DNA from: Apostichopus japonicus
Lineage: Eukaryota > Echinodermata > Holothuroidea > Aspidochirotida > Stichopodidae
Reading direction: 5' to 3'
DNA length: 64,000 nucleotides
Assembly (NCBI RefSeq): GCF_037975245.1
Contig: NC_092574.1
Coordinates: 10,751,213-10,815,212, forward strand
The notes beneath the pieces are model-generated. The model made no database searches. It saw nothing but the letters and a program-made list of their open reading frames with translations, and was not told where the DNA came from. The position numbers and the translations under genes were made by a program. Shown one piece after another: positions 21,960 through 63,602 of the stretch; the stretch's first letter is position 1, and every line of letters starts with the position of its first letter.

Positions 21960-24830
21960 ACACCAAGATAGCAGTCCAAACACTAGGTTGAACTGGTTTT
22001 GCCCACCATGGTTATTCAGACACTTGATATTCCATTCTGGGTGTCACTTACCACATCAAAGACACAGTGGTTCAAACACTTGGTACAAAACACTGAGTGT
22101 TTCGTGTACCATCTTAACCAGACAGTGGGGTTGAGGCTAGTGTCAAGGTGTTTCGGCAACGCAGCTAGTTGAGACTAGTTTCAAGGTGTTTCGACAACGC
22201 CAGCTAGTTGAGACTAGTTTCAAGGTGTTTAGACAACAAAACTTGGTATTGCTTTCTGAGGGTTCAACTGAGATTAGAGTCAAGGTGTTTCTACACACAG
22301 CTAGTTGAGGCTAGTGTCAAGGTGTTTCGACAACAAGACTAATTGGTATTGCATTCTGAGGGTTTCACTGAGATTAGTGTCAAGGTGTTTCGACAACGCA
22401 GCTAGTTGAGGTTAGTTTCAAGGTGTTTCCACAACGCCAGCTAGTTGAGACTAGTTTCAAGGTGTTTCGACAACAAAACTTGGTATTGCTTTCTGAGGGT
22501 TCCACTGAGATTAGTGTCAAAGTGTTTCGACAACACAGCTAGTTGAGGCTAGTGTCAAGGTGTTTCGACAACAAGACTAATTGGTATTGCATTCTGAGGG
22601 TTTCACTGAGATTAGTGTCAAGGTGTTTCAACAACTCAGCTAGTTGAGGCTAGTTTCAAGGTGTTTTGACAACAAAACATGGTATTGCTTTTTGAGGGTT
22701 CCACTGAGATTAGTGTCACTTGAGGTGTTTTGACAACACAGCTAGTTGAGGCTAGTTTCAAGGTGTTTCGACAACAAAACTTGGTATTGCTTTCTGAGGG
22801 TTCAACTAAGATTAGAGTCAAGGTGTTTCGACACACAGCTAGTTGAGGCTAGTGTCAAGGTCTTTCGACAACAAGATTAATTGGTATTGCATTCTGAGGG
22901 TTTCACTGAGATTAGTGTCGAGGTGTTTCGACAACGCAGCTAGTTGAGGTTAGTTTCAAGGTGTTTCAACAACGCAGCTAGTTGAGGCTAGTTTCAAGGT
23001 GTTTTGACAACAAAACATGGTATTGCTTTTTGAGGGTTCCACTGAGATTAGTGTCACTTGAGGTGTTTTGACAACACAGCTAGTTGAGGCTAGTTTCAAG
23101 TTGTTTTGACAACAAGACTTATTGGTATTGCATTCTGAGGGTTTCACTGAGATTAGTGTCCAGGTGTTTCGACAACAAGCCTAATTGGTATTGCATTCTG
23201 AGGGTTTCCCTGAGATTAGTGTCAAGGTGTTTCGACAACACAGCTAGTTGAGGCTAGTGTCAAGGTGTTTCGACAACAAGACTAATTGGTATTGCATTCT
23301 GAGGGTTTCCCTGAGATTAGTGTCAAGGTGTTTCGACAACACCAGCTAGTTGAGACTTATTTCAAGGTGTTTTGACAACAAAACATGGTATTGCTTTCTG
23401 AGGGTTCCCCTGAGATTAGTGTCAAGTTGTTTCGACAACACAGCTAGTTGAGGCTAGTGTCAAGGTGTTTCGACAACAAGACTAATTGGTATTGCATTCT
23501 GAGGGTTTCACTGAGATTAGTGTCAAGGTGTTTCGACAACACAGCCAGTTGAGACTAGTTTCAAGGTGTTTCGACAACACAGCTATATAGTTAAGGCTAG
23601 TGTCAAGGTGTTTCGACTACAAGACTAATTGGTATTGCATTTTTGGGGTTTCACTGAGATAATTGTCACAGAGGTGTTTCGACAACGCAGCTAGTTGAGG
23701 CTATTTCCAAGGTGTTTCGACAACGCCAGCGAGACTAGTTTCAAGGTGTTTAGACAACAAAACTTGGTATTGCATTCTGAGGGTTCCACTGAGATAATAT
23801 CAAGGTGTTTCGACAACACAGCTAGTTGAGGCTAGTGTCAAGGTGTTTCGACAACAAGACTTAGTATTGCATTCTGAGGTTTTCACTGAGATTAGTGTCA
23901 AGGTGTTCGACAACGCAGCTAGTTGAGGCTAGTTTCAAGGTGTTTCGACAACACCAGCTAGTTCAGACTAGTTTCAAGGTGTTTCGACAACAAAACTTGG
24001 TATTGCATTCTGAGGGTTCCACTGAGATATGTGTCAAGGTGTTTCGACAACACAGCTAGTTGAGGCTAATGTCAAGGTGTTTCGACAACAAAACTAATTG
24101 GTATTGCATTCTGAGGGTTTCACTTACTGTACCAGGGCAAAGTGATTCAAACACTTGGAATGCCATGCAGGGTGTTTCGATTACAAGACTTGGTATTGCT
24201 TTCTGAGGGTTCCACTGTGATAAGTGTCAAGGTGTTTCGACAACACAGCTAGTTGAGGCTAGTGTCAAGGTGTTTCGACAACAAAACTTGGTATTGCATT
24301 CTGAGGGTTTCACTGAGATTAGTGTCAAGGTTTTTCGACAACACAGCTAGTTGAGGCTAGTTTCAAGGTGTTTCGACAACAAAACTTGGTATTGCTTTCT
24401 GAGGGTTCTGCTGAGATTAGTGTCAAGGTGTTTCGACAACACAGCTAGTTTAGGCTAGTGTCAAGGTGTTTCGACAACAAAACTTGGTATTGCATTCTGA
24501 GGGTTTCACTGAGATTAGTGTCAAGGTGTTTCGACAACGCAGCTATACAGTAGTTGAGGCTAGTTTCAAGGTGTTTCGACAACAAAACTTGGTATTGCAT
24601 TCTGAGGGTTCACTTACTGTATCAGGACAAAGTGATTCAAACACTTGGAATGCCATGCAGGGTGTTTCAATTACGGCATCACAGACACAGTGATTCAAAC
24701 ACCTGTTACAGCAAACTGAGTGTTTCGTGTACCAACTTTACCTAGGGCCTAGATCTGAGGGTTTCGCTTACCTTAGTGATGCAAACAGTTAGTACCGCAA
24801 ACTCAGTGTTTCGTTTCCATCATTTCTTGA
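21960..24830 (+). repeat. ~100-bp satellite array with GTGTTTCGACAAC core
   Basis: GTCAAGGTGTTTCGACAAC recurs dozens of times, alternating with CAGCTAGTTGAGGCTAGT and TTGGTATTGCATTCTGAGGG blocks. The centre (22.1-24.6 kb) is well homogenised. Both edges (21.96-22.12 and 24.6-24.83 kb) carry diverged relatives with CAAACACTTGGAAT, the usual pattern of unequal exchange acting most on the middle. Confidence 0.95.
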
Positions 24831-35554: not shown

Positions 35555-36372
35555 CACCCACTCTCTACTTGCACCCACTCTCTACTTGCACCCACTCTCT
35601 ACTTTCGCCCACTCTCTACTTTCGCCCACTCTCTACTTTCGCCCACTCTCTACTTTCGCCCACTCTCTACTTTCGCCCACTCTCTACTTTCGCCCACTCT
35701 CTACTTTCGCCCACTCTCTACTTTCGCCCACTCTCTACTTTCGCCCACTCTCTACTTTCGCCCACTCTCTACTTTCGCCCACTCTCTACTTTCGCCCACT
35801 CTCTACTTTCGCCCACTCTCTACTTTCGCCCACTCTCTACTTTCGCCCACTCTCTACTTTCGCCCACTCTCTACTTTCGCCCCCTCTCTACTTTTGCCCA
35901 CTCTCTACTTTTGCCCACTCTCTACTTTCGCCCACTCTACTTTCGCCCACTCTCTACTTTCGCCCACTCTCTACTTTCGCCCACTCTCTACTTTCGCCCA
36001 CTCTCTACTTTCGCCCACTCTCTACTTTTGCCCACTCTCTACTTTTGCCCACTCTCTACTTTCGCCCACTCTCTACTTTTGCCCACTCTCTACTTTCGCC
36101 CCCTCTACTTTCACCCACTCTCTACTTTCACCCACTCTCTACTTTCGCCCCCTCTACTTTCACCCACTCTCTACTTTCACCCACTCTCTACTTTTGCCCA
36201 CTCTCTACTTTTGCCCACTCTCTACTTTTGCCCACTCTCTACTTTTGCCCACTCTCTACTTTCACCCCCTCTACTTTCACCCACTCTCTACTTTCACCCA
36301 CTCTCTACTTTCACCCCCTCTCTACTTGCACACACTCTCTACTTTCACTCACTTTATACTTTCACGCACTCA
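35555..36372 (+). repeat. 17-bp pyrimidine-rich minisatellite, about 48 copies
   Basis: The unit CTTTCGCCCACTCTCTA recurs with period 17. Variants CTTGCACCC at the 5' edge, and CTTTTGCCC, CTTTCACCC and shortened units toward the 3' edge, form blocks. As 17 is not a multiple of 3 and the unit has no stop in any frame, all three forward frames stay open (353, 305 and 284 codons). These are almost certainly not proteins. The strand has very few purines, so the DNA is prone to triplex formation. Confidence 0.97.
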
Positions 36373-38317
36373 GTTCTTTCGCCTCCTCCTTCAGGTGGGA
36401 TCCAAACGGAACTGCAGAGATGATGTTCTCCCTTCAGCAAATTCAAAACCAAGGCTAAAAGAAAATGTCAACAGACCTCTACACAACTCCAACCAAGTGA
36501 TCTTTATAGTGCAACATAAGCTGAAAACTAAAATACTGGACATGTGTCCAGTGCTATGATCGTTATTCCTTTAATGTAGCGTAGCATTACATGGTGTTCT
36601 GGGAACTGGGTAGCTTCAAATTAAAATTGGGACAGTGTCGTCACACTTATTTATCCATGTTCTTCAAAAAAAAATCACAAAAAAAATCCGCAACAATGGT
36701 TTATCATGTTTCTAAAAACACTCCAGTAATCTCTGAAACATTAAATCCTACAAGTAGAATATTCGCTCTTTTTGAAACATTAAATCCTACAAGTTGAATA
36801 TTTGCTCTTTTTGAAAAAAATTTATATATATATTTTGAATAAAAAACAATTAACTTTTCAACTTAACCAATTTCACACTAAGCAGTAAAGATAAGAAGAC
36901 AGAAGAAGAAGAAGAAAGGCTTTATACAAACACATATACATACTACATACGTACTGGACTGCTAATGTTTCACGTTGAATCCCATGTATGTATGCACATT
37001 CACCTATCTTTAGATATAAAACAAAGTACAAACTGTGGTACATTGATAGTCCTCTGGCAACAAACTAATTAACCATGGTAACGGAATCTCCTACCATCCA
37101 TGCAATCCCCCCATCCCCAAATACTTCAAACTCCAATGCCTACCTAGAACCCTACCTCCAAACCACCAACTCCCTCCCCCCCCCCCCTCACCTCACCCTA
37201 AACTCCTAACCATTCCATTATCGTGATGCCATTCCCAAATTGATAAATTCTCTATCAAATTTGTCCTGAAGCACACAACATACTAATGTCAGCAAATTGT
37301 CACAAATAGCTTAGAGCATTTCCTCACCCCATAACTTAATTTTGGAAGTTCTTTCCCAGCATCCCATCCCATCCTCCCTCCCTCCCCCTCCAATCACTGA
37401 CACATTTCTTCAGCTAGCTCCAACTATTGCAGGTACTTACTGCTCGGACACTAACATCCTTAGAAACATTGCATTATGAAAATTAAAAATAAATTTATCA
37501 TATTAGAAATAACAGTTAAGAAAACACTTGGGGAGTATTTCACTTTTTTCTTTTACAAAGAAATCCTTCAAACTTGACAGGCAGCTTTTAAAAGTCCTGA
37601 TTAGGAAGTAAAGTTGTTACCAAGACGGGCTCGAATATCTGACTCCCATGACATCGTTTAATGATTTCATTGTCTATTCACGTTTACGACACAGCTTATC
37701 ACACACATGGTACGGATTCTATTTCTGAGATATAGTTGTTTGTTCTCTGTGCATGTACAACACCAAGACTGTGGTTCATGATGTAACCTCTTCTCATAAT
37801 TTAAAATAAAAACTACCCATGGCATGATTCCTCCCACCATCCCCCCCCCCCCCCCTTGTTTGATCGAATAACAGATTTCCGTTTTCGGGTTGTTAGGTTC
37901 TTTTTTAGGATGATGGCTAAAAGTGGGGCGGACAACAATATTTGTGGAGTATCAAGACATTTTAAAATAGTACCTGCTAGTCACATACATAGACACATAC
38001 ATTTTTAATGTGAGGGCGGGGAAGAGGGATTCAAAATACTCATTCTGTCAGTTCTACACTAAACAATGTAAAACTCCCCCAACTGTTGTAGGGCAGGTAG
38101 GCCGTGTTTCCACCCCAATTACCCCAGGCCTGTCTGCGCTTGCCGCTGGTAGCAAATTAAACTTATTTTTTCTGAAGTCAACCTGTAGAGTTATTTAACG
38201 TGCAGCACCACCCCTCCACCACCCACCACCGTATGCTTGAGGGGGTGATTGGGTCGGTGGATGAAGAAAACACATTATCCAATCAGAACGAGTAGCTCCT
38301 CCTGCACTGTACCAGGT
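36373..38317. other. Downstream flank of the MICU gene, no other gene seen
   Basis: Includes the probable MICU 3' UTR (38317 down to about 38000) and C-rich runs near 37170 and 37840. ACATTAAATCCTACAAGT is duplicated near 36740 and 36780. Confidence 0.5.
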
Positions 38318-38392: not shown

Positions 38393-41300
38393 CTGAGTAA
38401 TAAAAAAGACAAAGATTTTTATTAAAATTAAAATTTTAACCAAAATTAAAGCATCTGGTCCCCATGTCTGAGGTCCCCACCCCTCCCCCATCTCACCCAC
38501 CCACTTCAGATAATTAATTCAGTTGTGCTTTACCAGTAACAATTGTAGCAATTGCCCCAAATCGAAAGTGACACCATTTTCAAGACAACGATTCCATGAT
38601 GTATTTTCTTCAGTACAAGAATGACCTTTAGCCCAGATAAAGCTAGACCTAGGTGTTACAGTATCAGATAAATATGTCAGAAAACACAGCAGAATGAAAA
38701 TACAGAATAGATAATATTTGCAAGCAGGTAACTTGATTCTTCATTTTGTTTCGCAGAGTGAAATAAACAAAATTCTGATGGGTTTCAAACATCTGTTGGT
38801 GATTCAACTATTAAATTTAACAAAATATACCATGTTAATCAATTAATTGATTGGTTGATGGATTGACATGCCTAGATATGTTGCAAGACCAACATATGTG
38901 ACACAAACCAAACCGTTGGGTGAATTGTCTACCGTATGTTACTGGATTAATCGCTACAAATGTTTTTTTTGGGGGGTGTGGGGGACAGGGGGTGGGGACA
39001 GGACCTGGTGATAGACCCCTTCACTACAATTTGGGCAGTTTTGACAAAGTGAACCTGTGATATCACAACTATGCCCAAACTGTTTAACATTTTGGAGGAT
39101 TTGGGGTATTTTCCAAATTTCCTTCTACCCAAAAGTCAGATGAATTTATGCTTGAATGTATTTGTATTCTAATTTTAGCCTTTCTTGATTTTAAATTTTC
39201 TGGTTATTAACAATAATAAAAAAAACGTCTGAAGCATTGCTTTAATAAATAAAAGAACCAACCATCTATGCACCCTACCCACCCACCCCCCTCCCCCACC
39301 CCTGCCCTAATTATGGCTACGTTACCCGGAATCCTCGGTGAGCTCTGTTTTTCATTGCACCCATAAACTCTCTCTGTAGTAATTTACCGTCACCTGAGTA
39401 GTAATAAAAGAAATCTCATTTCCTAACACATGGTTCTACATGCTCAGGCACACAAACAGACAGACTAACTATGAAATAATAAACACGTATATCTTATTCA
39501 TCAAACATTGATGTCAAATAAAAGAGGTGCCTTTTTCTTTTTTTTTCTCTTTATTCTTGAAAAGGATAAATGGCAACTCCAAATTCTTACATGTAGAAGT
39601 CTGATGTTAGTCTGTGGTGTAGTATTTCCCACCAAGACACTTGTTTTGACATACACAGAGATACAGTTATTGCAATGACATCACTAGTTATCTTCTAGTC
39701 TGTATCATCTTCCCAAACCTAGAATCTCATAATTATAGCCACTTGCTCAACAACAAAAATGACAGTGCATAAAATATCTAACTTGCTAAAATCAAATTCA
39801 ATCTTGCATTTTGACTTGAATTAATACCATCTTTTTGTCTATTGTGCAAACAATGAAATCTACAGCCATTTAGCCAGACAAATAAGTCTGAATTTCGAGG
39901 CCTGAATCTTCATCTAACATGATGAAGGGTAAGGTGGTTTAAGATAGCGTGTGGTGGGTAAGGGGAAAGAGACAATGAGGAGGGTTGAAGTGGGGTGAAA
40001 GTTAGAATTGTACATGAAGGGTTGTGTCAGACCTGTGCAGAGAGAGGTGGAAGTAAAGTGAGGTGCGGGTAGTAGAGAGAGGTAGCTGGTTAGTGGTATG
40101 TGTTTGAGTGGTATGTGTTTGAGTGGTGTGCAACGGGGACAAGACAGAACAGGGTGAATGTTTTCCAGCAAAGGGCAATGGTGGAAGTAGGTGCAGCAGT
40201 ATGAGGTTGGTCAGCGATGTGGGGTGAAGTGGCTCTGAATAATAATCAAAGCAGCAAGTTGCAGGACGAGATAAGTTGACCACTTAGGCTGACATAAGTT
40301 GCAAATGTGGAGTGAGGTGGGTTTCAGAAGGATAAAGTGGTACTGTTGTTGTGTGAGGTGGGTTTGAGACACAGCATGAGATTAAGTGTTGTTTGAGGTG
40401 GGTTTGAGGCATGGAATGAGGTTGATCTTGAGTGAGGTGGGTTTGAGGCATGGAATGAGATGGATGTTCTGTGTGGTGTGTTTGAGGCATGGAATGTGAT
40501 TGGTGTTGTGTGAGGTGGGTTTGAGACACGGCATGAGATTAAGTGTTGTGTGAGGTGGGTTGAGGCACAGAAAGAGATTGGTATTGTGTGAAGTGGGTTT
40601 GAGGCATGGAATGAGGTTGATCTTGTGTGTGGTGGTGGGTTTGAGGCATTGAACGAGGTTGATCTTATGTGAGGTGGGTTTGAGGCATGGAATAAGGCAG
40701 GCGCGGCGGAACGGAAAAATTATTGGGGGGGCTAATGTGTGGAGACTATCTAAGCGGAGCGCCACCATCGGTTGGCGCGGAGCGTACACGAAAAAAAATT
40801 TGGTTTTTTCAAACCCCCAGATGGCCGGAAACGGCACTTCCCGAGTGTTTTATGCTGCGAATACCTAGCCCTAAAATATGGGTCTCAAGCCTGCAATTTC
40901 TCAGATTGCACGTAAAAGTCTGTAAAAACATTGTAATTTGTATATTCGATGGTGTTTTAAGAGAGTAGCTATTACTCGTAGTGTACTCGCAAAGACGTTT
41001 TTGAGCGTAGTAAGGGCAGTGGCGGAGCTAGGGGTATTGGTCAGGGGGGGCAAGAATGGAGTCTGTAGGGGCGCTTTCGACACTATCTAAGCGGAGCGCC
41101 ACCACAGGCTGGCGCGGAGCGTACAGAAAATTTTTGAGTAAAGTTACTCCCTAGATTGCAGGAAATGACCCTTTCCGGGCCTTGCTAATTTGCAGATAAA
41201 CGGAGAATAAATAGGTGTCGTCGCCATTTTGTCGGAAAATTACACCAACAGAATATGACAAATGTCAATAGGTACTGTATATTAGAGCGCAATAAAATAG

Positions 41301-44300
41301 TCAATAATCGCGAATAAGTTAAAAGTAGTGAAAAGCTGAAAAGGGTGCCAGCAGTCCATTTGAGTCCGTCAGGAGGGGGGGGGGATCCGCCCCCTGACTG
41401 TATATATGGACGCTCCGCCACTAAGTAAGGGGATGTTGGAGAACTGGCTGAAATGAGGCAAGTCATTGGCCTAAGACGAAGTTGTGTTACGCTTACCGGT
41501 ACTCACACTCACTGCTTCCACTTTTCACGGGGCGTGAAGACGCGGTTGGGGTGACAATGTGGTCTATAGCCAGGGGACGGGCTGAGGGACCAGGGTCCCC
41601 CAGCAATTACTAAAATTATTACACCTATAAAGTATATGTGTGCATCGGACAGATCGACAAGTATGCATTGAAAAATGGGCAGATGCACGTTTCGGAGCCT
41701 TGGTAAATATTGGGGGGGCTTATCATGCATTTGCCCCCTCAACTTTTTCATTGGGGGGGCTGAGCCCCCCCAAGCCCCCCCGGTTCCGCCGCCACTGGAA
41801 TGAGGTTGATCTTGTCTGTGGTGGGTTTGAGGCATGGAATAAAATGGATGTTCTGTGAGGTGGGTTTGAGATATGTAGGGTTATAGATTTGAAGAAGGAA
41901 TAGCCCATTGGTGACAACAGTCAGGATACAAGAGCAATGTGGGACAAAGCGGGCCTTAAAATATGGCAACAGAATACGAAAATATTCTTAAAATATTAAT
42001 GTTAATGTCTAGGTTACCCAAACTGAGATTGAATAAAGTCTAACTTACCGTCTTGGTCAAAAATCTGAAAGACTGTGTGTACTACATGATCAGCAAGTTG
42101 ATGGCCGGTAGTGACCAGAACAGCTCTCCTAAATTCATCTGTAAGATAAGAAAATTGAAAAACAAAAGTGGATTCATACATTGTAATCTGTTGTGATAGG
42201 TTTTCATTAATGTAGATGGAATTTATTACAGTACAGATGGAAGAAATAAAAAGAAGAATCATTATGAGACTGCATAGCATAGTTAGGAATAACAAACATT
42301 TGATATTAATACTGAATGAGAAAGAAATGTGTGAGAGTTTTCAGGTCCTTGGAAAGTTATATTCCAAATCAAAATTACTTCAGCCTACATATGATTTCAT
42401 AGTGTGAATATTCATAACAAGTTGAGTCATTTACATACCTCCAGACAATGACTGGGTAGTATATTGCATACATCCTCAGAACATTTATTAAGAATTGATT
42501 TCATACTATGAATATTCATAACAAGTTGAGTCATTTACATACCCCCAGACAATGACTGGGTAGTATATTGCATACATCCTCAGACCATTTATTAAGAGTT
42601 AATTTCATACTATGAATATATTCATAACAAGTTTAGTCATTTACATACCCTCGGACATTGGTTGATCAGCAAACGAGTACATCCTCAGGACAATTTCAAA
42701 GTCATCCAAGTTGTTGACAAACTGGAAAAAGTCTTTGAACTGCTCAAACGTTATACCCTGCAGCAATAGTAAAGAAACAAAGAAAATATTGAAATCCATA
42801 TTGAAAGAATATTACAAAGATTGCCATAACTCTTAAATATCTTTAAGATTCCTTTGCTTGTTTATGACTCAGGTTTTTAATACCAACTTTGTTCGAATCT
42901 TGCTCTGTGTCAATAATGCCATCATTAACACTGCCTATTAAGTCTGCAAAAGTGGCGGAGTATTTTAGCTCTTAACATCAGACAGTAAATTAGTCGGTGC
43001 ATGACACTGACATCTTTAGCCCAGAGTATTCTATGCAAATAAAGCTAAGCCTAAAACTCATCAGTTTTTTGAAAAAACTTTTACGGACAGTTGTTATCTG
43101 TAGTATCTCATCACATTCGTGCCATTACCTGACACCAACTCTTTGGGCTCATATCTTGGAACTGTAAGAGTTGAGTAAAACTGAAAACATAAACCAAACT
43201 GGATGCTTTTGAAGGAGTATAACAAACCTTTTCTTCCTGGGTCCTCTCCCGCACCATGTCCAGGTAATCTTCTATCTCCTCGTCGTCCAGGTTGGTGTAC
43301 TTGAAGATGGCCTTGGCAAACTCCACCTCGGAGATGGTCGGCATTCCTTTCGACTGTTCTTGAAAGTGCAGAAGTTGTTAATGGAATCAATATAATGACA
43401 GCATTTTGTATTTATAACTGAGCCAAAACCTGATCGATCGTGCTGAAAAAAATTTGGTGGCTGTTTAAATTATCAAACAATTGTTATTTTGTCAAAAAAT
43501 TGAGCCCTCCTCTCAAAGCAATGGCTGCTTTGTTTGCTTTGTCCATTTCACTTATTAAGTAATAAAGCCGCCTACATTAATTACTACAGTAATTAAGTCC
43601 CATATCCTTTGAAATGAGCAGTGTACAATCACAGGAAGTGTTCCTCGGTAACTACCCTCTAGTATGCTTACAATCAACTCATAATTACCCCCCCCCCCCC
43701 AACCATCCTCATCACTCACATATGGAAACAATTTTCACCACTGAATCAAACATACAAGAACTTTCATCTTCAAAATTGTGCTCCAAATTTATGGTTAAAA
43801 AGTATTCAATTGATTTGGTATGAAAAAGGATATCTCCAACTCGAGAACTTCTGACTGCAGGTTATCCATAAAACTGAAAACAGAAAATAAACAATTAGAA
43901 AATGTTAGCACCAGCCCATGAATAATCCCCTACAACCCCCCCCCCCCATTCACCCAACCACCCATTCCTCCATACACCTATAAGAATGATGAGTATGATT
44001 ATTACAAAACTCCTCCTTTCCTGCCCTCCCCACACCTTCCCTTCCCCTACACATTCCATATATATCCCTGAGTTGTAGGCATATAACATTTACACCAATA
44101 GCTCACAAGGTAATGTTTCTATTGCTTCAACAGTGAACTAATAGTCAACATGGAACACACTATGAGCTCATGGATATTTTGACTTTTTCCAAGATAAAAT
44201 CTGTTTGCTCTGGAAATGCGGGAAAAGTGTAATGTACTGATTTAATTTTTAACTAACTTACAAGTACAGGATAATTTTAGCTAACGATACTGATTGATTA

Positions 44301-47300
44301 ACAGACCAGCTTGCTTCAGCTGATTGGCCAGATCAATATTCCATTATTCTTAACGTTATAATATCACCAAGGCATACTTTGATACTCTCAATCAGACCAG
44401 ATTATAAGTTTGCATCAGGCTATACTCTTACATGGTGCCTGGGACAGACCTCATACTACACACACGTACCCCCATAATACCCGCCCCTTCCATCACCCCA
44501 GAGTGATACTACAAACCTTGGAGACCAGGCTACACTTACATGCTGTCTCGGACCTCATCTTTGTCACATGTACCCCCATAATACCCCCTACCCCCTCCCC
44601 TCCACCACCCCAGAGTGGTACTACAAACCTTGGAGACCAGGCTACACTTACATGCTGTCTCGGACCTCATCTTTGTCACACGTACCCCCATAATACCCCC
44701 CTCTCCCATCACCTCAGAGTGATACTACAAACCTCGCAAACGTATCGTAGTCGAGAGTGTCCTTTCCTTTGGAGCCGAAGAAGTAACGCAGAAGGGTGGT
44801 TTCCTGAATGTGAAGTTCCTGTACTCATCATGCATACATTGAAGGAATAAAACAAAGATATGCAACGTTGAACAAAATGAAACCCATGTTACAAGATAGG
44901 GTGGTACACTTATATAATTCCCAGAGCAGAAACTAGCCAGTGTCAGTGAAACCCCCTCTCCTTCCATACCAACCACCCCCACCACCAATCAGGACCATTG
45001 TTACTGGTCATGCATCACAAGGGTTGCAATACGATCTTGTGTCATTCATATTGATCAGAATAATTGTTCTGGTTAGAACTGGTTTTGATCCTTAATCAGT
45101 TTGCTTTCTTTGTTTTTTCATTTGGTGCAAGCTACAGTCGGTATAAAGGGGGAACACGATGTGCAAGCTACATCTAATATGTCATTGTATGTTGAAGAAA
45201 GTCTTTAATATATAACTCATCTTGGGAGTGGGTCCATTGAGCTACACACATTTGGTATATATCACTGGTTACTCACCATGATATCGATAGTTAAAAATCA
45301 AATTCAGCCAGGTACAGAAATCAAATCGGTATTAAATCCCTACTTATACTTTAACAAATATAATCTAGTCTTTAAACAAACTTATAAACTCATAGAAAAC
45401 CGAAACATTTTCTGGTTGCAGCATGTGACAGACTGTGTGACACACGTCACAGACTGTGTGACACACGTCACAGACAGTGTGACACAATTATTATACGTCA
45501 GATCATAGTTAGTACCACAGCAAGCATGTTGTTCACTTCACTGCAAATGGAAGGTGAGTCTTTTCATATGGAAGATAACTACTGAAAATGCACATTCTGC
45601 ACTTGATTGTGATGGGTAAGAGAAATTAAAAACTGCAGGGTATATACTCTTTTCATATTGTTAGGAGTAAAGCAGGAGGGAAAAGGGGGTTCATATTCAA
45701 AAATTCTAATTCACAAAACTTATGTTGATGATTGTGGGTGCTATAGTCATATGTATGGTCCACAAAGTTAAAAACAAACTGAAGTGATTTTCACTGCTTC
45801 ATGCATAAATGAACTGTTAAACACACATTAGACGTGTTTCTAGCACATACTATATAAATATCATGTGCTACCTTACTTTAGTTGAGTATAGCAGGATTAG
45901 AACGACAAACAAATTTCTACAGAATCTTCCTATTGATACACCATACTTTAAATTTTCCATTTTTTGCTAACTTCTTGTTTCTTACTCCCCTTCCAATCAC
46001 CATTATACACTCAACACCCAGTCCACCCCCCCCCCCCAACCTCCCCTGACTTAAGCTGCATTGTGGGAATTGGTTGTTATTTGCCACTCAATTATGCCTC
46101 ATCATGAAATGTTCACACATAATTGGACCACGCAACCCCTCCCCCCCCCCACCCCTCTCAATCTAACAATCTAAACTGAGAGATCTACATGGAGCTTACA
46201 ACCAGTTGGCTGCGAAAAATAGTTGCACGGTGATCATTTCGGCACCTTATAGAAAAGGTTGTATCCCAGAAATTAAATGTTATTTCCAATCTTATGTTTT
46301 TGCATGATGTCATCATCATTCACGGTGGTTTTGGTGGACAGACTAACGTAAAAGATTCTGTCCTTGTGCATACTCATCTCTCCTGTGGTATGACATTAAT
46401 AGCAAATACAGTCTTAACATGGGATCAGTGTTATTAAACGTGGTATGATATTAGCATATACAGTCTTAACATGGGATCAGTGTTATTAAACCCAATATGG
46501 CCATGAAGATATAGATTGTACAACTGAAATGTCAAACCTGCAAATCCCCAAACTTGGACATTTATATGCTGTTCAATCAAGTCTGAGAAAGACTATTAGG
46601 GGAGGGAGGGAGGGGAGGGAGGGGAGGGAGGGAGGGAGGGGAGGGAGGGGAGGGAGGGGAGGGGGGAGGGGGAGGGGGAGGGGGAGGGAGGGGGGAGGGA
46701 GGGGAGGGAGGGAGGGGAGGGAGGGGAGGAAGGGGAGGGGATTGTTACATGATTACAAAGGGAGGATCAAAGCATTATACCATTTCTTGCTGCCTTCTCT
46801 AGCTACAATATGAGCGATATCCATCAAAATGTGTTAATTATCGACTAACAAAACCAATATAACTGGATATATAATAGCTATACCTATAGCTAGCTATATT
46901 TGAGCTATAAGTATAGCTGGCTATACACCTGCTATATTATATAGGTGGCTACACATTAGCTATATATTGTTGAATATATGCACTAGCTATACCAATAGCT
47001 GGCCATATATTAAATAGCTATAAAGCTGGAGCCTATAATACACTTGCGACATGCATACTTGGCTACACACCAGCTACATCCATTGATAGCTATAATACAC
47101 TAGCTATAAACAGTCACTTTGCACTAGCCATGATACCCATTATGGCCGGCTACACAATTGAGCGTACAACTCGATCCATTCTACCATTATAGATCCGTGG
47201 CAGACCAGATCATATTTGTCATATATCATTGTATGCTCAATATGGTTTAACTTCCACAAAAATTGAACATCTTTGCAGAAAGTTGATCTCTTTTATTCAA

Positions 47301-53300: not shown

Positions 53301-56300
53301 CTCTACAAACTTCATCATTTCACTCCATAAAAATTCAGATGTTAAAAAAAATGTAATGCCTTTTGGAATTTTTTGCATTATGACTGTCACCATCAAAGCT
53401 AACTTAACCAAAACCAAAAACAATAAAAATAAATAAGAAACCATATTGTATAACTTTCTACTTGAGGAAAAAGTATTCACCCATTGAAAGGGGCAACTTT
53501 ACATCACTATTAAATTCTTCATCAAATTTATACCACATCAAAGGGGGGGATGGGAAGTGGGCTGGGGTGGGCCAAGGTGGGCAGGTGAGAGGCTTCCTCT
53601 CGTCTCTATCTCCTCCTCTCCATTAGACATGAGCGGTTGATGATGAAGTTTTGCAAGATGTAAGAAGCAGGTTTTACATTATCAGAAAAATCCTCTGGAA
53701 CCAAAAGGGTCACGCATTAAAGTGCAACAAAATCTTATACGAGAAAAAAAAAAAAGAGTTAACAATAATAATTTTTTTTACCTCAGAGTTCCAGATCTAA
53801 GAAGGGGTGAAACAAAGGAATCAGTAACATTTGAGAAACATTTATGTGAAGAGGGTATAAAAGAATATTTACTACAAAAAAAAAATGGTAAATGACATGA
53901 AGAGGATAGTGGATGTTGGATCTACATGGGGTGTTTTTACCATCGCCAAGTCAACACATGTACACCATAGGTTTTTCTTCTTCTCGTTTTGCAACAATAT
54001 CAGAAAAGTTGTTTTCAACTTTTCATATTGCTTTTGCAAGGTACCATAATTCCATATCTGTCTTTGATAATCATTTACTATTACTGACAAGAATTGATGG
54101 AAGGATTGGCCACAACATTTCTCTCGATTTGATCAATGTAACTCAAAAGATGAAGTCAATACCCATGACTCTCTCTCTCTGTCCAAATTTTGTTCAATGA
54201 GACCTTTCGCTCTAACAATACTTTTTTTCCCTTTAAATCCAACAGGCTCATTTCACTCACAGTAATAGCAAAGATTGCAATTTTTCAAGATATATTTTTC
54301 AACATACTGAAGATGAATATATTGAAAGATGGGCAGGAACTAAATCATATCACTAGCAATTTGCAGCAACACCCCACCCTCTCATACAAAACTGAAAAAT
54401 AATTATTAACCATTAATCCAATGCAGAATACTCTGTTTTGAAATGTTTTCCACAAAATTTCATGTCATGTTTTATTGATTCATTTTCAAATCTTTGAGTG
54501 TGCCGGTTTGGTGCTTTAAATGAGAGGTGGGAATGAAATTGGCCAGACAGGACACAGAAACTTTATACTCGATCAATGTGTCGCAAAAACTTAAGGATGG
54601 CACTCCTGTGATATATTTTCTATCACAAGTAGGACCTTTATACAAACTCCCCCACAGTATCGCACATTTCATAGTTCTGCCACGTTACGACGTTCATTAA
54701 CGGGGATGTGAACAGATCTTCATGCGGGCTACAGAAAAAGATTTGTTCACGGGATGCACTTTGCCCGACAATTATGTAACAAGTTTAGGTTATCAGGTCT
54801 TTTATCCTTCCTTTAACAGTATCCCTCCCTTCCCATCCTCCCTCCCCACTTCCCCAACTTTCCCCACTCCCCCACAAAATGGCAAATCCTTTTCAGAAAG
54901 CAATTCTTCTCTCCAGTGATGATGGGTGTTTTAATGTTGACTTGGCAACGGAAAATAACTAAACGACCACTAGATATGAGGAGTACGGAAAAACTATCTA
55001 CTTTGACAAACAGATGGACGACACAAGAAAAAAAACCACAAGGATGTTCAAACAGACTCGGCTTTGACATGACAACATGAGCGAGAAACTATGGAGAAGG
55101 TTTTTTGGGTATAAGCAGGAAGAATGGAGGCTTGAAATTTCCTCTCATGCAGAGAGGGGCAACAAAAAAATGATCATTCTTTATGAAATGTTGTTGAAAT
55201 TTCTGATCATTTAAGTTTTTAAAAAATTTGTTTAACAGTTAACCATTTAACAAACTATTTTTTCTTTCACTTCCTTCTTTAGTCTTGATATTTTTAAATT
55301 TCCAGCGGACAGACTAAAATCGCAATACACTCACTTTGGAAAAAGAAATATATTCAGCAATACTGAAAAGGTTATAAAACTTATAAATTTGACGGCAAAA
55401 CACAGAAAAGGAAATAAGAGTTTTAAAGAGAGCCCAAAGCCACTGAGAGAGTATAAAATGAAAGAAAATAACAAGAACCAGTTCACAGCAGACTTTCATA
55501 GAACAAAACAAATCGATTAATAACCGATATTAACACATTTGGCAAAAATATTGCGTTTTTTTTTTTTTTTCCTCAACACAAATTAACAGCGAAATCAAGG
55601 CGAAAACTTTTCAAACAAACGAAGTACTAAAAAGTATCAAATGATAGAAAGGAGCACAAAAGGTAACAGTAGTTTTGGAAGAATTCAAGAATTGTGCGAT
55701 CGAGCGAACGCAAAATGAAATTGGTATCGGCACTGTGTGCAAAATGTTGAACAGAAAAGGAAATATAGTTTTGCACCATTTTAAGGCAGCCTATACTCGA
55801 CAACAGGAACTTCAAGTTTGACCAAAAACAAAACCAACAAGTTTTGCACTTAAGTTGCTGAAAATAGGAGGAGTGGTAGATATGAAAGCAAAATTAGAAA
55901 GAGGCAACACCAATGAACAGGAGGGGGTTCTTTTTCCAAAGTGAGAGTAATATTTGCAATTTTTGGTCCGTTCTGATCTGGTCTGTTGTCGGTTGCACTA
56001 CGTACAGAGTCTGGAACATCATAGAACTTGCTCAGGAGACTCACAGAGTCATCTTCGTCTCCGCCTTTGCGGCTAAGAGACTTCTTGCGGAAAATTTCCT
56101 CCATCTGTCATAGCGAGAGAGAAAGAGAGAAACATTTACTGGAATATTAATTGGAACGTTATCAGAAAGAACTTTGTTTACTTTTACTAGTATTCTAGTA
56201 TACAAGTATATACAAGTATAAACTAGTATACAAGTATACTACTGGGTATACATGCTCTACATAGGTATACATGTTTACTACTAGTAAACAAGTATACTAG

Positions 56301-59300: not shown

Positions 59301-62300
59301 AGGGAACCAATGTTCTCCCATAGATTCAGGCCTTTCAATTAAGGAGCATGTAATTCCCAAAGTAATAAAGCATTACTCTTGCTTGTGTGAATGATATTTG
59401 GCTGGCAACGTTCCTTTTCATTTAACATTGCCAAAAATTCTATATTTGTTCATGTTTTTAGGCCTTGAAATATACCATGAATGAAACAAACAGGGACAGT
59501 AATTTGTTCTTTCTCCATGATGCATCCTCCATTGATGCCCTTGCTCCTTGCTCCCACCCCTCACTCACCCCACCTTCTGTCACTAATTGCTTCTTTAAGC
59601 CCGGCATTATCTGATATCATCATCTCTAACACACTATTGCAACATCACCACATTTATTACGTAATAGACACGACAGAACTTAAATTTCCACCTAGCATTC
59701 CCACCCTACATTCACTCCCTTCCCTGGTGGCATGAATAGCCCGTCCCACCCCTTCCCTGCAACTGCTTGCCTGCCCCCCCCCCTCCCATCACCCTGCTTC
59801 CATCACTGGAATTCTGATAAGGTGGTCTCGACATGTACTGAAAATAGTAACAATGGATGTGATCTGTTTTCACATTGTGTTTGTTATTAAACAAAAGGGC
59901 CTCTACGTCTCGTGTTAGAGACGCATTCCAACCATTCAGATGTATAATTAATTTATTCTCACCAGCAGAAATTCCCTCCTGTCAATTCTCTTGTTCCCAT
60001 CTCGATCAAACATCTTGAACGCAATCTCGTATCCAGCCTTGGGTTCTGTCCGAGGGAAGATGGAGAAGTGGAAAGAACATTTATTATAAGTAAGTATTAT
60101 GGATAAAATAGGCATATACATTTGACCATGTACTAGCTGGAAAATATGCAACAGGTTGGTCATACTTGTTGTGAATTGCATGTGACTTTTAACCGGGGGG
60201 GGGGGGGGGTGGGAGGGAGGAAGAAGTGGAAAGAACATTTATTACATGTAGGTATTATGGATAAAATGGGCATATCCATAGCAAAACACTAGCTGGAAAA
60301 TATTCAACAGGTTGGTCATACTCCTTTTAAATGTTTATATTAAATTGAAGGTGACTTTTGGCTGGGGAGGGAGGGAAAAGTGGAAAGAACATTTATTAAA
60401 AGTCAGTATTATGGATAAATGGGCATATACATAGCCATGTACTAGCTGGAAAATAGTCAACAGGTTGGTCATACTCTTTGTAAATGTTTATGTTACATTT
60501 TAGGTGACTTTTGGCCGGGGAGGGAAAGGTGGGATGGGAGCCCTGGAGAAGTGGAAACAACATTTATTACATGTAAGTATTATGGATAAAATGGGCATAT
60601 ACATAACCATGTACTAGCTGGAAAATACTCCACAGGTTGGTGATACTACTTGTAAAAGTTTAAATTACATTGAAGGTGACTATTGGCCATGGGGGGGGGG
60701 GGGGGGGGGGGATGGGTGGGATGGAGAAGGTGAAGGTATAGAGAAAGTGGAGGGAGGTAGTCTCGTTTGCTTGTGTTTTTTCCTATTATATTTTAGGGGG
60801 GGGATGGGGAGTGATGGCAAAAAGTTATCTTAGTTGTTTATTTTCCATCAGCTTTAAATGATCTGCATTTCGTGTTGTACTGCACACCTTTGCATCACTA
60901 TGACCACAACCATCTTATCCTTGATACCCTTGTATCTAACTGAAGTGTGATGTATGTGGTTACAATCATGATTAAGTGAGTTACTGACAGTTTAATCCAA
61001 TAACAGGATTATTCTTCTTCTTTTGGTCCCTTTATTAATTGGTTTTCCTCTCATTTTTTGGGCAAACCTTTGCAGCGTCTGGACAGCAATATCAGAACTT
61101 TTGTTCATGGTTTCAATCACTGTAGGCTAAAAAATTAATTTTGCCATGTACCTCATCGTATAATCCTTTACAATGTCTTGCAAAGTAACTGCAGACTGCA
61201 GCAAAGTTAACACATAATGCTGCTATATGACTAAACACCAACATGAAAAGAACCAGGGAAAACAAGCCATACGACTCTTTGCCTATAGATTGCTCTTTCA
61301 AGATTGTATGGTCAAAGGAAATGACACAGTTGGACTAAACAGAAGTGAGACAACATTCCTTCCATTGAGGAATTGTCCTTGTACAAAGTCTAGGTGAAGA
61401 AATCGATTGCGACAATATAAACTGTTCTGTAAAAGACCAGAACTAAAATTCCAACAAAATATCCATTGCATGGAATCTCTGTTGCGACTGATTACCCGGA
61501 GGGGGGGGGGGGGGAAGAGGTGGTTTATAACAGTGAAAATAGTTTACTACAGAGGTAACTGTTTGAGTCGACTATAGTCAACCTTGAACTTGATCAAGTC
61601 CTATCCCCTACATGGTAATTGTATCAAATTGCTCTCCCTCGACTCTTGCTGGGCTGGAAATTGCGACGGGGATGAGTCAATTAAAGACGTTATGTTTGAT
61701 CTCCATCCAAAATAGAGCAGAGACGGATATTTCTTACGAGGGGTTAAGCATCTATGAAATACCCCCCACGAAATATTTTCATGTTGTCAAAATATTTTCA
61801 TAAACCACTTTCCGCAAAATCAAAGGAACTTTATTCAGAAGGATAAGGGGACAAAAATCGAGAAAGAAAAAAACAACAAAGATTTGTATCGCAAGGAAAA
61901 CTAGGCAACTGTGCTAAGTGGAACAGGAAGAGAATTTTGAAAGATTTCAAAGAAAAACTATTCCCTGATGTTTATTCCTTCAAATGAGGTTGGTTATACA
62001 TTACTAAAAAGGATATGTATAAAGAGTCAACTTCCATAGAAGAAATGTACACAATTTTGTTCCAATATTTGTGTTGAAAGTTTTGACATTCTCAATCATG
62101 GCAAGAGTATGTCAGACACTCAAATTTATCACACACAAGTTGTCAAAAAGCAAATTATCACACACAAATTATCATACCATTACGGAGAAGACATCGTCTC
62201 AAATTCTATCCATATCGCTGCTTTGCACTTCTAGAAATCAGACAGTGTGAGACAATATTCAAGATAATGGAACAGCTTACTTAATAGCCTGAATTTGATG

Positions 62301-63602
62301 ACCTCATGTCACCCCCCCCCCCTGAATAAGACAATGAAAGGGAGTAGAAAGACATAGTCTTTTTATATTTTATAAATCAGATTAAAGCTCACAATTACTA
62401 TGTGACGCACGTTCGTAACGAACCGACGGTAGATCCTTGGGTACTTTGACTCTAAAAAGAAAAATTAAATGACTGAAAGTGGGATGCTAATCCAGCTCTC
62501 ACAGGGCATACCAGACTGGTTTATTCCCTGGGATTTTTTGGTTCTGATTTTTTAGCATAATTGTCAACGAGGTTTAAAAACTGTGAACTCACTTGTCAAA
62601 ATGCACAACAGGAATAAGTACTCTGTATATGAGAGGATACCTGAAAGAGAATAAAGAGAGCAAAATTTTGAATCAAAATGTGATATAAACCTTAACATCA
62701 AACCTTTAAAGCAGCCCCCATTTTTTATGAGTTGAGTGTGACAAATAACTTTCCTGCAATTTGATAATGAAAATGATCTCAATATAATATAGTTCATCAA
62801 GTATATTTTAACTTGTTTTTTGTGCATAATTAACACTGATATAAAAAATAGTGTCTGGGCAACAGAATTTTTCGAATTCCAGAATCACATTTGTGTAACA
62901 TTGACTTAATTGATAACCAAATGAAGATGGTGTACTCTAATTCCAGTAAATGCAGTCATCTTTAGGGTACTTATACTTGGTACATTCCGTGACACTTCAG
63001 ACCAACGACTGCATGACTCCTGACCCCCTGGCCATCTGGTCTCCGGTGGTGTCCAGGCCCTGTAACTCTCAAAAGTCGGTTCCCACAGTGGCGCAGCTAG
63101 GGTTATTGGTCAGGGGGGCGAGAATGGTCTGTAGGGGAGGAGCGCCACCACAGGTTGGCGCGGAGCGTACAGAAATTTTTTGAGTAAAGATACTCCCTAG
63201 ATCGCCGGAAATGACCCTTTCCGGGCCTGGCTAATTTGCAGATAAACAAAGAATAAATAGGTGTCATCGCCAAATTACACAACAAAATGTGACAAATGTC
63301 AATAGGTAGATGAGAGCGCAATAGAAAAGTCAATAATCGCGAATAAGTAAAAAGTGGTAAAAAGCTGAAAAGAGCGCCAGCAGTCCATATGAGTCTGTCA
63401 GGGGGGGCATCTGCCCCCCTGACTGTATGGACGCTCCGCCACTGGTTTCCCAGGTTTAATGGCAAATCCTTTAACTAGGTTCCCTCCTTACCCTGATCCA
63501 TAATGTCTCGAAACAAGTACTTGGTCTTTCTCCTTCTGCTCGGTGTGTTCGCCAGCTTCTTGTCCACCTGTGCCTTCGATAGTAAAAACCGTCCGATGCG
63601 AG
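38318..63602 (-). CDS. MICU3: MICU2/MICU3-type mitochondrial calcium uptake protein, 12 exons, 5' end outside window
   Basis: MICU proteins sit in the mitochondrial intermembrane space and gate the calcium uniporter (MCU) by sensing calcium. Exons, in transcript order: 63492-63602, 62593-62640, 59963-60045, 56045-56104, 47796-47831, 44733-44803, 43834-43873, 43228-43365, 42649-42757, 42049-42138, 39326-39393, 38318-38392. Together they give about 308 codons with every phase closing. Seen in order: SYTEYLFLLCILTKPKAG, a first EF-hand loop DRDGNKRIDRRE, EIFRKK, LRYFFGSKGK, FMDNLQSEVLELE, FQFVNNLDDF, a second EF-hand loop DQDGDGKLLQRE, and FKTCVKHELKQSQ then stop. The C-terminal Cys matches the position known to make the intersubunit disulfide in MICU heterodimers. 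EIFRKK and SYTEYLFLLCILT resemble vertebrate MICU3, but the linker before FFG is short, as in MICU2. It could be an unduplicated MICU2/3 ancestor-type gene. The targeting peptide and first exons are not in the window. Confidence 0.93.
39326..39393 (-). CDS. MICU3: MICU gene exon (EF-hand 2 completed, KNRAHRGFR)
   Basis: The exon is 68 bp, with acceptor TACTCAG and donor GTAACG. It encodes (G)DGKLLQREFMGAMKNRAH and RGFR, finishing loop DQDGDGKLLQRE. The RGFR end matches the family. The intron before it was lengthened by a 40-bp array and nested MITEs. Confidence 0.93.
40290..40697 (+). repeat. ~40-bp tandem array, left part
   Basis: GAGGTGGGTTTGAGGCATGG recurs about ten times with GAATGAGGTTGATCTTGTGT-like spacers. 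The array continues after the inserted elements at 41798-41870. Confidence 0.9.
40698..41797 (+). mobile_element. hAT-like MITE inserted in the array (outer element)
   Basis: Begins CAGGCGCGGCGGAACGG and ends CCGGTTCCGCCGCCACTG (imperfect inverted ends). GAATAAGG (40690-40697) and GAATGAGG (41798-41805) flank it, 7 of 8 alike. They belong to the interrupted array unit. It carries a hairpin core at 40745-40850. Confidence 0.85.
41017..41423 (+). mobile_element. hAT-like MITE nested in the outer element
   Basis: Begins CAGTGGCGGAGCTAGGG and ends CGCTCCGCCACTA. AGTAAGGG flanks both sides exactly (41009-41016, 41424-41431). 407 bp, closely related to the element at 63086-63444, with a hairpin core at about 41085-41190. 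Confidence 0.93.
41798..41870 (+). repeat. ~40-bp tandem array, right part
   Basis: Continuation of 40290-40697 (GTGGGTTTGAGGCATGGAAT), separated by the MITE insertion. Confidence 0.85.
42049..42138 (-). CDS. MICU3: MICU gene exon (start of EF-hand 2)
   Basis: The exon is 90 bp, with acceptor CTTACAG and donor GTAAGT. It encodes (D)EFRRAVLVTTGHQLADHV and VHTVFQIFDQD plus one base. The C-terminal EF-hand loop is split: DQD and the first base of a Gly codon are here, the rest is in the next exon. Confidence 0.96.
42421..42648 (-). repeat. Tandem copies of the exon-9 donor region
   Basis: GTTGAGTCATTTACATACC recurs at 42421 and 42525 and, as GTTTAGTCATTTACATACC, at 42631 in the real exon end. 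Periods are 104 and 106 bp. On the minus strand each copy keeps CTGAGGATGTA and a GGTATGT donor, but the codons between have drifted. Confidence 0.9.
42649..42757 (-). CDS. MICU3: MICU gene exon (FQFVNNLDDF)
   Basis: The exon is 109 bp, with acceptor CTGCAG and donor GTATGT. It encodes GITFEQFKDFFQFVNNLDDF and EIVLRMYSFADQPMSE plus one base. Two decayed copies of its 3' end and donor lie immediately downstream (42421-42630). Confidence 0.96.
43228..43365 (-). CDS. MICU3: MICU gene exon (ISEVEFAKAIFKYTN)
   Basis: The exon is 138 bp, phase 0 at both ends. It starts just after the AC of the U12 intron and ends at donor GTTTGT. It encodes FQEQSKGMPTISEVEFAKAI, FKYTNLDDEE and IEDYLDMVRERTQEEK, the MICU region between the two EF-hands. 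It is noticeably more GC-rich than its surroundings. Confidence 0.95.
43366..43833 (-). other. AT-AC U12-type intron (468 bp)
   Basis: On the minus strand the intron begins ATATCCTTTTT and ends TTCTGCAC. The 5' site is an exact match to the minor-spliceosome AT-AC consensus. A branch-site-like TCCATTAAC (7 of 9 to TTCCTTAAC) places the presumed branch adenosine about 12 nt before the terminal AC, within the U12 spacing rule. Flanking exons join in phase 0 as LELE-FQEQSKG. No polypyrimidine tract is visible before the AC. Confidence 0.88.
43834..43873 (-). CDS. MICU3: MICU gene exon (FMDNLQ), followed by an AT-AC intron
   Basis: The exon is 40 bp, with acceptor TTTTCAG. It encodes (S)FMDNLQSEVLELE. 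The exon must end before ATATCCTT, because no GT at this point keeps the frame with the next exon. Joining at ATATCC restores the family's continuous LE-LEF sequence. Confidence 0.9.
44410..44732 (-). repeat. Tandem copies of the exon-6 donor region
   Basis: ACTACAAACCT (minus AGGTTTGTAGT, the exon-6 donor) recurs at about 44509 and 44621 besides the real site at 44726-44734. Each is followed by CCAGGCTACACTTACATGCT-like and GTACCCCCATAATACCC segments. Spacing is 104-112 bp. Confidence 0.9.
44733..44803 (-). CDS. MICU3: MICU gene exon (FFG motif)
   Basis: The exon is 71 bp, with acceptor CATTCAG and a weak donor GTTTGT. It encodes ETTLLRYFFGSKGKDTLD and YDTFA plus two bases. It corresponds to the TTLLVHFFGKKGK region of MICU proteins. 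The donor end and about 100 bp of the following intron have been copied in tandem downstream (44410-44732). Confidence 0.92.
45419..45487. repeat. 24-bp palindromic tandem repeat
   Basis: GTGACAGACTGTGTGACACA and CACGTCACAGACTGTGTGAC alternate nearly three times. GTGTGACACACGTCACA is close to its own reverse complement, so each unit can form a hairpin. Confidence 0.9.
46595..46740 (+). repeat. GGGA/GGGGA purine tract, G-quadruplex prone
   Basis: About 145 bp of uninterrupted GGGAGGGAGG-type sequence on the plus strand, inside a MICU intron. The MICU transcript carries the C-rich complement. Confidence 0.95.
46855..47150. repeat. TAGCTATA-rich degenerate repeat
   Basis: TAGCTATA, GGCTATACA and TAGCTGGC words recur over 300 bp. 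The core TAGCTA is palindromic. Confidence 0.75.
47796..47831 (-). CDS. MICU3: MICU gene short exon (linker), 36 bp
   Basis: The exon is 36 bp, phase 0 at both ends, with acceptor CTAACAG and donor GTAATT. It encodes AKKRFQAVQVDE and joins in frame to ETTLLRYFFG of the next exon. The sequence is in the family's variable linker, so homology does not prove it. The splice sites and phase do fit. Other exons in the 8-kb intron before it cannot be excluded. Confidence 0.6.
48236..48390 (+). mobile_element. Possible decayed tRNA-derived SINE
   Basis: GTGGCATTTCAAGCAATGAG followed by GAGGTTCCTGCTTCGACATC resembles a tRNA A box and B box at normal spacing. A non-tRNA body (CGGTTTTCATCCAAGAGCAA) follows. 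No target duplication was identified. Confidence 0.4.
49901..50530 (+). repeat. 93-bp tandem repeat, 6.6 copies
   Basis: TGTTATTGGTGTGAAGG starts at 49901, 49994, 50087, 50180, 50273 and 50366, each 93 bp apart. A shortened last unit starts at 50459. Units contain GGTACCCGGGTATC and GACAATTGATAAAGTGTCAA, both partly self-complementary. Confidence 0.95.
56045..56104 (-). CDS. MICU3: MICU gene exon (MEEIFRKK linker)
   Basis: The exon is 60 bp, phase 0 at both ends, with acceptor ATGACAG and donor GTGAGT. It encodes MEEIFRKKSLSRKGGDEDDS. EIFRKK matches vertebrate MICU3. The charged remainder corresponds to the variable linker. The open frame continues past this donor to 55850, but the strong GTGAGT and the match of the next exons favour ending at 56045. 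Confidence 0.85.
56190..56600. repeat. AGTATACTAGTATACAAG-type repeat
   Basis: AAGTATATACAAGTATAAAC and CTACTGGGTATACATGCTCT recur in larger units of about 116-200 bp. The words ACTAGT and GTATAC are palindromic. It lies just upstream of the MEEIFRKK exon in the transcript. Confidence 0.9.
58250..58830. repeat. Ancient degenerate ~110-bp repeat
   Basis: GTGCGGTCATCATTTTAGCC-like and ACAGTCACTTTCATGA-like blocks recur about five times (near 58275, 58420, 58543, 58640, 58738) with heavy drift. Confidence 0.5.
59963..60045 (-). CDS. MICU3: MICU gene exon carrying EF-hand 1
   Basis: The exon is 83 bp, with acceptor GGACAG and donor GTGAGA. It encodes (K)PKAGYEIAFKMF followed by the complete calcium loop DRDGNKRIDRRE and FLL. 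All calcium-ligand positions (1, 3, 5, 12) carry D, D, N, E, so this loop should bind calcium. A tandem repeat of about 160 bp abuts the intron side of its acceptor. Confidence 0.96.
60050..60720. repeat. ~160-bp tandem repeat next to the EF-hand-1 exon, 4 copies
   Basis: AAGTGGAAAGAACATTTATT, ATGGATAAAATGGGCATAT and AACAGGTTGGTCATACT recur near 60066, 60225, 60380 and 60547. G runs lie between units. The first copy starts within a few bases of the exon's acceptor. Confidence 0.92.
60721..62592. other. MICU intron 2, no other gene seen
   Basis: G runs near 60690-60710 and 61500-61514. Short frames only. Confidence 0.5.
62593..62640 (-). CDS. MICU3: MICU gene exon (SYTEYLFLLCILT)
   Basis: The exon is 48 bp, with acceptor CTTTCAG and donor GTGAGT. 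It completes a Gly codon from the previous exon and encodes ILSYTEYLFLLCILT plus the first base of a Lys codon. This hydrophobic segment is among the most conserved MICU3 motifs. Confidence 0.95.
63086..63444 (+). mobile_element. hAT-like MITE, 359 bp, in MICU intron 1
   Basis: Begins CAGTGGCGCAGCTAGGG and ends GACGCTCCGCCACTG. Flanks GGTTCCCA (63078-63085) and GTTTCCCA (63445-63452) differ at one base of eight. The hairpin core is near 63125-63230. The long minus frame here is a by-product shared with the other copies. Confidence 0.92.
63492..63602 (-). CDS. MICU3: MICU gene, first exon visible (partial gene)
   Basis: The exon is 111 bp. It enters with two bases of a split codon after an acceptor ending TTTCCAG and leaves with one base before donor GTAAGG. 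It encodes RIGRFLLSKAQVDKKLANTP and then SRRRKTKYLFRDIMDQ, the stretch just before the SYTEYLFLL segment in MICU proteins. An upstream exon must exist beyond 63602; I see none in the remaining 400 bases. A hAT-like MITE lies 47 bp past its donor. Confidence 0.88.

Follow-up and report, generated by a model that had tools for sequence, protein, structure and literature searches.

The window, a 64,000-nucleotide stretch of the Apostichopus japonicus genome (C14:10751213-10815212; 671.6 Mb in 35 contigs searched), contains a minus-strand gene whose exons match human MICU3 between 62640 and 39326. The gene extends upstream past the window, with a further match at C14:10853971-10854081, and its N-terminus falls outside the window. 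A peptide built from a 40-nt exon and five neighboring exons matched MICU3 with an E value of 2e-54 (187 bits), MICU2 with 142 bits, and MICU1 with 94 bits; by bit score, the gene is closer to MICU2/MICU3 than to MICU1. Homology to human MICU3 and MICU2 (6agi, 6eaz, and others) runs along the tested C-lobe, and MICU3 is the best match. EF-hands flank the core at both ends: the C-lobe EF-hand_8 scored 38 bits, over the cut-off, and the N-terminal EF-hand (E = 5e-5) was under the curated cut-off. A separate MICU2 gene was not found with a human MICU2 query, in a search insensitive enough that two exons of the window gene itself reached just E = 0.01 and 0.08. Otherwise the query gave one weak match, on C18 (E = 0.70), that contains a stop.

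Nine exons were placed in the window, all on the minus strand. The upstream set comprises GILSYTEYLFLLCILT (62593–62640), beyond which the gene continues out of the window, an EF-hand exon (K)PKAGYEIAFKMFDRDGNKRIDRREFLL (59963–60045), an exon that begins MEEIFRKK (56021–56104; start fixed by its acceptor, 56021 being the last matched base), and ETTLLRYFFGSKGKDTLDYDTFA(S) with donor GTTTGTAGT (44733–44803). Next come the 40-nt exon (T)FMDNLQSEVLELE (43834–43873), which has a U2-type acceptor, TTTTCAG, upstream and a U12-type donor downstream, and the exon FQEQSKGMPTISEVEFAKAIFKYTNLDDEEIEDYLDMVRERTQEEK (43228–43365), which has a GT donor at 43227. Downstream are GITFEQFKDFFQFVNNLDDFEIVLRMYSFADQPMSE(D) (42649–42757), (D)EFRRAVLVTTGHQLADHVVHTVFQIFDQD(G) (42049–42138), and an EF-hand exon (G)DGKLLQREFMGAMKNRAHRGFR (39326–39393). 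Two exons have tandem repeats as close neighbors, at 60062–60688 upstream of the first EF-hand exon and at 44480–44700 downstream of the ETTLL exon. A 104-bp unit present in 2.5 copies (42392–42657) overlaps the 3' end and donor of the GITF exon, and two more diverged copies of that exon end, each with an intact GTATGT, lie in tandem within the next intron.

Between the 40-nt exon and the next is a 468-nt, phase 0 intron with AT-AC ends (43366–43833, minus strand), identified as the top join of 2195 with a mismatch-free donor. On the minus strand it starts ATATCCTTTTTC and ends TTGATTCCATTAACAACTTCTGCAC. Its 5' splice site, ATATCCTTT, occupies 43825–43833, and its AC 3' splice site occupies 43366–43367. 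The 40-nt exon ends in LELE and the following exon starts with FQEQ, giving a predicted junction of GAG + TTTCAAGAA for intron ends at 43833 and 43366; TTTCAAGAACAG opens the next coding match, directly after ...TTCCATTAACAACTTCTGCAC. Donors from 43869 to 43734 were combined with acceptor exon starts from 43447 to 43288, with introns of at least 40 nt, and the joined peptides were scored against human MICU3 as printed in the protein alignment. Within these ranges, 2195 joins of the two exon regions were in-frame and stop-free. The AT-AC join had the highest score, 142, and the runners-up, which have GA-CA and AG-GC ends and are shifted by one or two bases, scored 139. In the joined peptide, LELE|FQEQSKGM aligns to LEIE|FLSYSNGM of human MICU3 with no gap at the junction.

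The U12-type donor consensus is [A/G]TATCCTT, and the U12-type branch consensus is near TTCCTTRAC, about 10–20 nt before the 3' end. Against the donor consensus, ATATCCTTT has no mismatch at +3 to +9; over the same positions, each of the seven other donors that could be placed in the gene differs at four to six bases. The motif occurs just 6 times in 128,000 positions (both window strands), so its occurrence exactly at the donor set by homology is far from chance. An AT-AC, U12-type intron in a MICU2/3-like gene had been proposed in a first-pass annotation, and its coordinates, 43366–43833, are exact on the minus strand. The same annotation held that the frame is restored by removing a segment that begins with AT and ends in GCAC, as the join scores bear out, and that the 5' site fits the minor-spliceosome consensus exactly, as it does. 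Join score, donor, and MICU3 homology all support the proposed intron type and host gene. A second copy of ATATCCTTTTT occurs at 62016 on the minus (sense) strand, in another intron of this gene; it has no evidence of an adjoining exon and is probably a chance occurrence.

Signals at the branch and in snRNA pairing are less distinctive. The branch-site-like sequence TCCATTAAC (43377–43385, minus strand) has two mismatches to the consensus TTCCTTAAC, and 12 nt follow the branch A, in keeping with the branch-like sequence about 12 nt before the end that had been noticed earlier. AC sites with such a 9-mer upstream (two mismatches or fewer) make up 127 of 7630 (1.7%), and a 2-mismatch branch 9-mer likewise precedes one of the gene's GT-AG acceptors, that of the exon starting at 42757. 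Enrichment of the branch consensus was not found on the plus strand, where it gave 77 sites versus a mean of 90 for shuffled consensus sequences among 3955 AC sites, in a control that did not require the branch A and is not strictly matched to the real count. The branch motif was therefore not used as independent proof. Pairing with the genome's own snRNAs is possible for the donor over six contiguous Watson-Crick pairs at the 5' end of U11 and over seven with U6atac; for the branch region, the longest stretch paired with U12 is five bases and lies outside the expected register. Duplex energies were unexceptional, being equaled or beaten by 18% (U11), 9% (U6atac), and 38% (U12, branch) of 5000 random stretches from the gene region. 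According to excerpts of PMC7367187, U12-type introns show a deficit of phase 0. Classification as U12-type thus rests on the donor, ends, frame, and homology, as the branch and snRNA pairing are weak, and on these grounds 43833–43366 is almost certainly a genuine U12-type AT-AC intron in a gene of the MICU2/3 family.

Other explanations for this junction fit poorly. One is that the exons are joined by a U2-type GT-AG intron and the AT-AC ends are coincidental; five in-frame, stop-free GT-AG joins were found among the 2195, all from the single donor GTTCTCGAG at 43848. Each of them drops at least nine residues present in human MICU3, the best scores 100 versus 142 for the AT-AC join, and GTTCTCGAG has no U2 features apart from GT, which makes this reading very improbable. 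No GC-AG join occurred among the 2195. Past the AT-AC donor, the next in-frame stop comes at offset 36, well before the first GT at offset 72, and the final 40 nt of the intron contain no AG. Removal of an AT-AC intron by the major spliceosome is known, as for SCN4A intron 21 (excerpts of PMC2831892), but seems equally hard to credit here. ATATCCTTT, set apart from the seven other donors, agrees with the U12 consensus throughout +3 to +9, and the donors of U2-type AT-AC introns resemble ATAAG. Least probable of all is an assembly error at a donor that truly reads GTATCC. The AC acceptor and the lack of AG in the last 40 nt fit an AT donor, and even a donor reading GTATCC would be of U12 type. 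The position, frame, donor, and acceptor of the intron and the homology around it, like the presence of minor snRNA genes, can be read directly from the genome sequence.

The genome has minor snRNA genes over the search cut-off, with scores of 115.9 bits for U12, 104.2 for U6atac, 88.7 for U11, and 72.2 for U4atac, in searches that score best candidates only and report one match per snRNA. For CCDC84/CENATAC, four matches exceeded the cut-off; they all lie on C12, and one has an internal stop; human CENATAC protein promotes AT-AN minor introns (excerpts of PMC8280824). Examples of AT-AC U12-type introns in a fly-human table include those of PHB2, STX6, KCMF1, and a T-type calcium channel (excerpts of PMC2831892), and PHB2 was used as a control. 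In the same genome, a PHB2 exon ends AAYM|ATATCCTTTTC and the next exon follows TTGCCTTGACATCATTTTCTTAC|LGEAI, consistent with an AT-AC intron. This intron is in phase 0 and has a branch 9-mer 14 nt from its end with two mismatches, the same number as in the MICU2/3 intron. The genome therefore likely has at least two AT-AC minor introns, in MICU2/3 and PHB2. The MICU2/3 intron resembles known AT-AC U12-type introns in its ATATCCTT donor, in a branch-like site close before the AC end, and in being a minor intron among major ones; it differs in its host, a MICU2/3 uniporter regulator, in its 40-nt upstream exon, and in its 2-mismatch branch motif.

Splicing of this intron would begin with U11 reading the donor ATATCCTTT and U12 recognizing the TCCATTAAC region, with the A named in that motif as the putative branch point. 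U6atac would then replace U11 at the donor, and the minor spliceosome would join LELE to FQEQ. Retention of the intron places an in-frame stop after ISFFIPNQLNTF, 12 codons in and ahead of the C-terminal part of the regulator. Poor minor splicing would thus be expected to leave a prematurely ended reading frame in the transcript and to reduce the gatekeeper. We infer that expression of the MICU2/3 gene depends on minor-spliceosome activity. In rat cardiomyocytes, knockdown of U6atac caused the minor introns of Scn5a and Cacna1c to be kept and both channels to be lowered (excerpts of PMC8767276). By analogy, a similar effect of minor splicing on the MICU2/3 gatekeeper is plausible.

The MICU1 gene of the same genome, on C6, has an intron at the aligned LLKLE|FNKFDPVDG, with the same position, the same phase 0, and no gap around the junction. 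This intron is 3022 nt long and reads GAG|GTAAATGAC ... TTCTTCCAG|TTC, with GT-AG ends; within its last 40 nt, no 9-mer comes closer to the branch consensus than four mismatches. By these features, the MICU1 intron at LE|F is of U2 type. Four further introns coincide between the paralogs in both position and phase: two in phase 0, located after EFLL/EFQQ and before GITF, and two in phase 1, located in the D of DEF/DTF and in the last EF-hand. Introns of the window gene before FMDN and before ETTLL are missing in MICU1, in which one exon spans these sites. Because four more positions are shared with MICU1, the LE|F site was probably present before the duplication. Gene duplication, recurring in different lineages, is described as the origin of MICU genes (excerpts of PMC3567112 and PMC7423614).

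We consider it probable, from this comparison of gene structures, that the LE|F intron is older than the split of MICU1 from MICU2/3 and that it became U2-type in MICU1 by conversion. Published changes of intron type run mostly from U12 to U2 (excerpts of PMC2831892), and conversion has been proposed to favor phase 0 introns that have a G at −1 (excerpts of PMC7367187); conversion in MICU1 is for these reasons the simplest and likeliest history, with the proviso that the direction of change cannot be fixed from two genes in a single genome. The U12 type in MICU2/3 could instead be derived, either because a shared U2 intron became U12 or because each paralog gained its own intron at the same site. 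The comparison does cover two paralogs of one genome, and the excerpted text of PMC2831892 gives one U2-to-U12 case in flies and just 5 AT-AC clusters among 79 conversion clusters, which makes conversion of AT-AC to U2 rare. Such an origin is nonetheless unlikely, as five intron positions and phases are common to the paralogs, which argues against independent gain, and as the published direction is mostly the reverse. AT-AC introns are also held to be largely unaffected by conversion (excerpts of PMC7367187). Because they rarely convert, the path to the U2-type intron of MICU1 would be expected to lead through a U12-type intermediate with GT-AG ends.

Conversion in MICU1 also has published counterparts. 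As in the U12-to-U2 conversion pairs of Burge et al. (as cited in excerpts of PMC2831892), the two introns share codon position and phase, and one is U12-type and the other U2-type GT-AG. The present pair differs in that the retained copy is AT-AC, the rarely converting subtype, and in that both members are paralogs within one genome. A fuller scenario, which we offer as speculative and rather doubtful as a whole, is that an ancestral MICU had a U12-type intron at LE|F, that the duplicated MICU1 was converted and became free of the minor spliceosome, and that MICU2/3 retained an AT-AC intron just downstream of its 40-nt exon. The activity of the minor spliceosome and of CENATAC might then set the MICU2/3:MICU1 ratio and hence the calcium threshold of the uniporter.

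No paper stating that a MICU gene has a minor intron was found among the literature matches listed, and the MICU2/3 AT-AC intron may already be catalogued in an intron database such as U12DB, IAOD, or MIDB. Both subjects are named in PMC10853796, PMC11844187, and PMC8733206; excerpts of the first mention MICU1 only for a microexon and give 3.5% U12-type introns for calcium-binding exons. What is new here, on the evidence of the two gene structures, is that MICU1 has a U2-type GT-AG intron at the position and phase homologous to those of the AT-AC intron. With the MICU2/3 intron, the ion-handling genes that have minor introns come to include a regulator of mitochondrial calcium. MICU1 and MICU2/3 offer a natural comparison, identical in site, phase, and last exon codon (GAG) but different in intron type, in which the manner and timing of a change of intron type can be tested.

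Two further repeat arrays were observed in the window. A 17-bp minisatellite at 35557–36383 has 49 copies with 94% matches, and three plus-strand frames are open throughout it. A complex satellite at 22130–24614 consists of many copies of units of about 38–100 bp.
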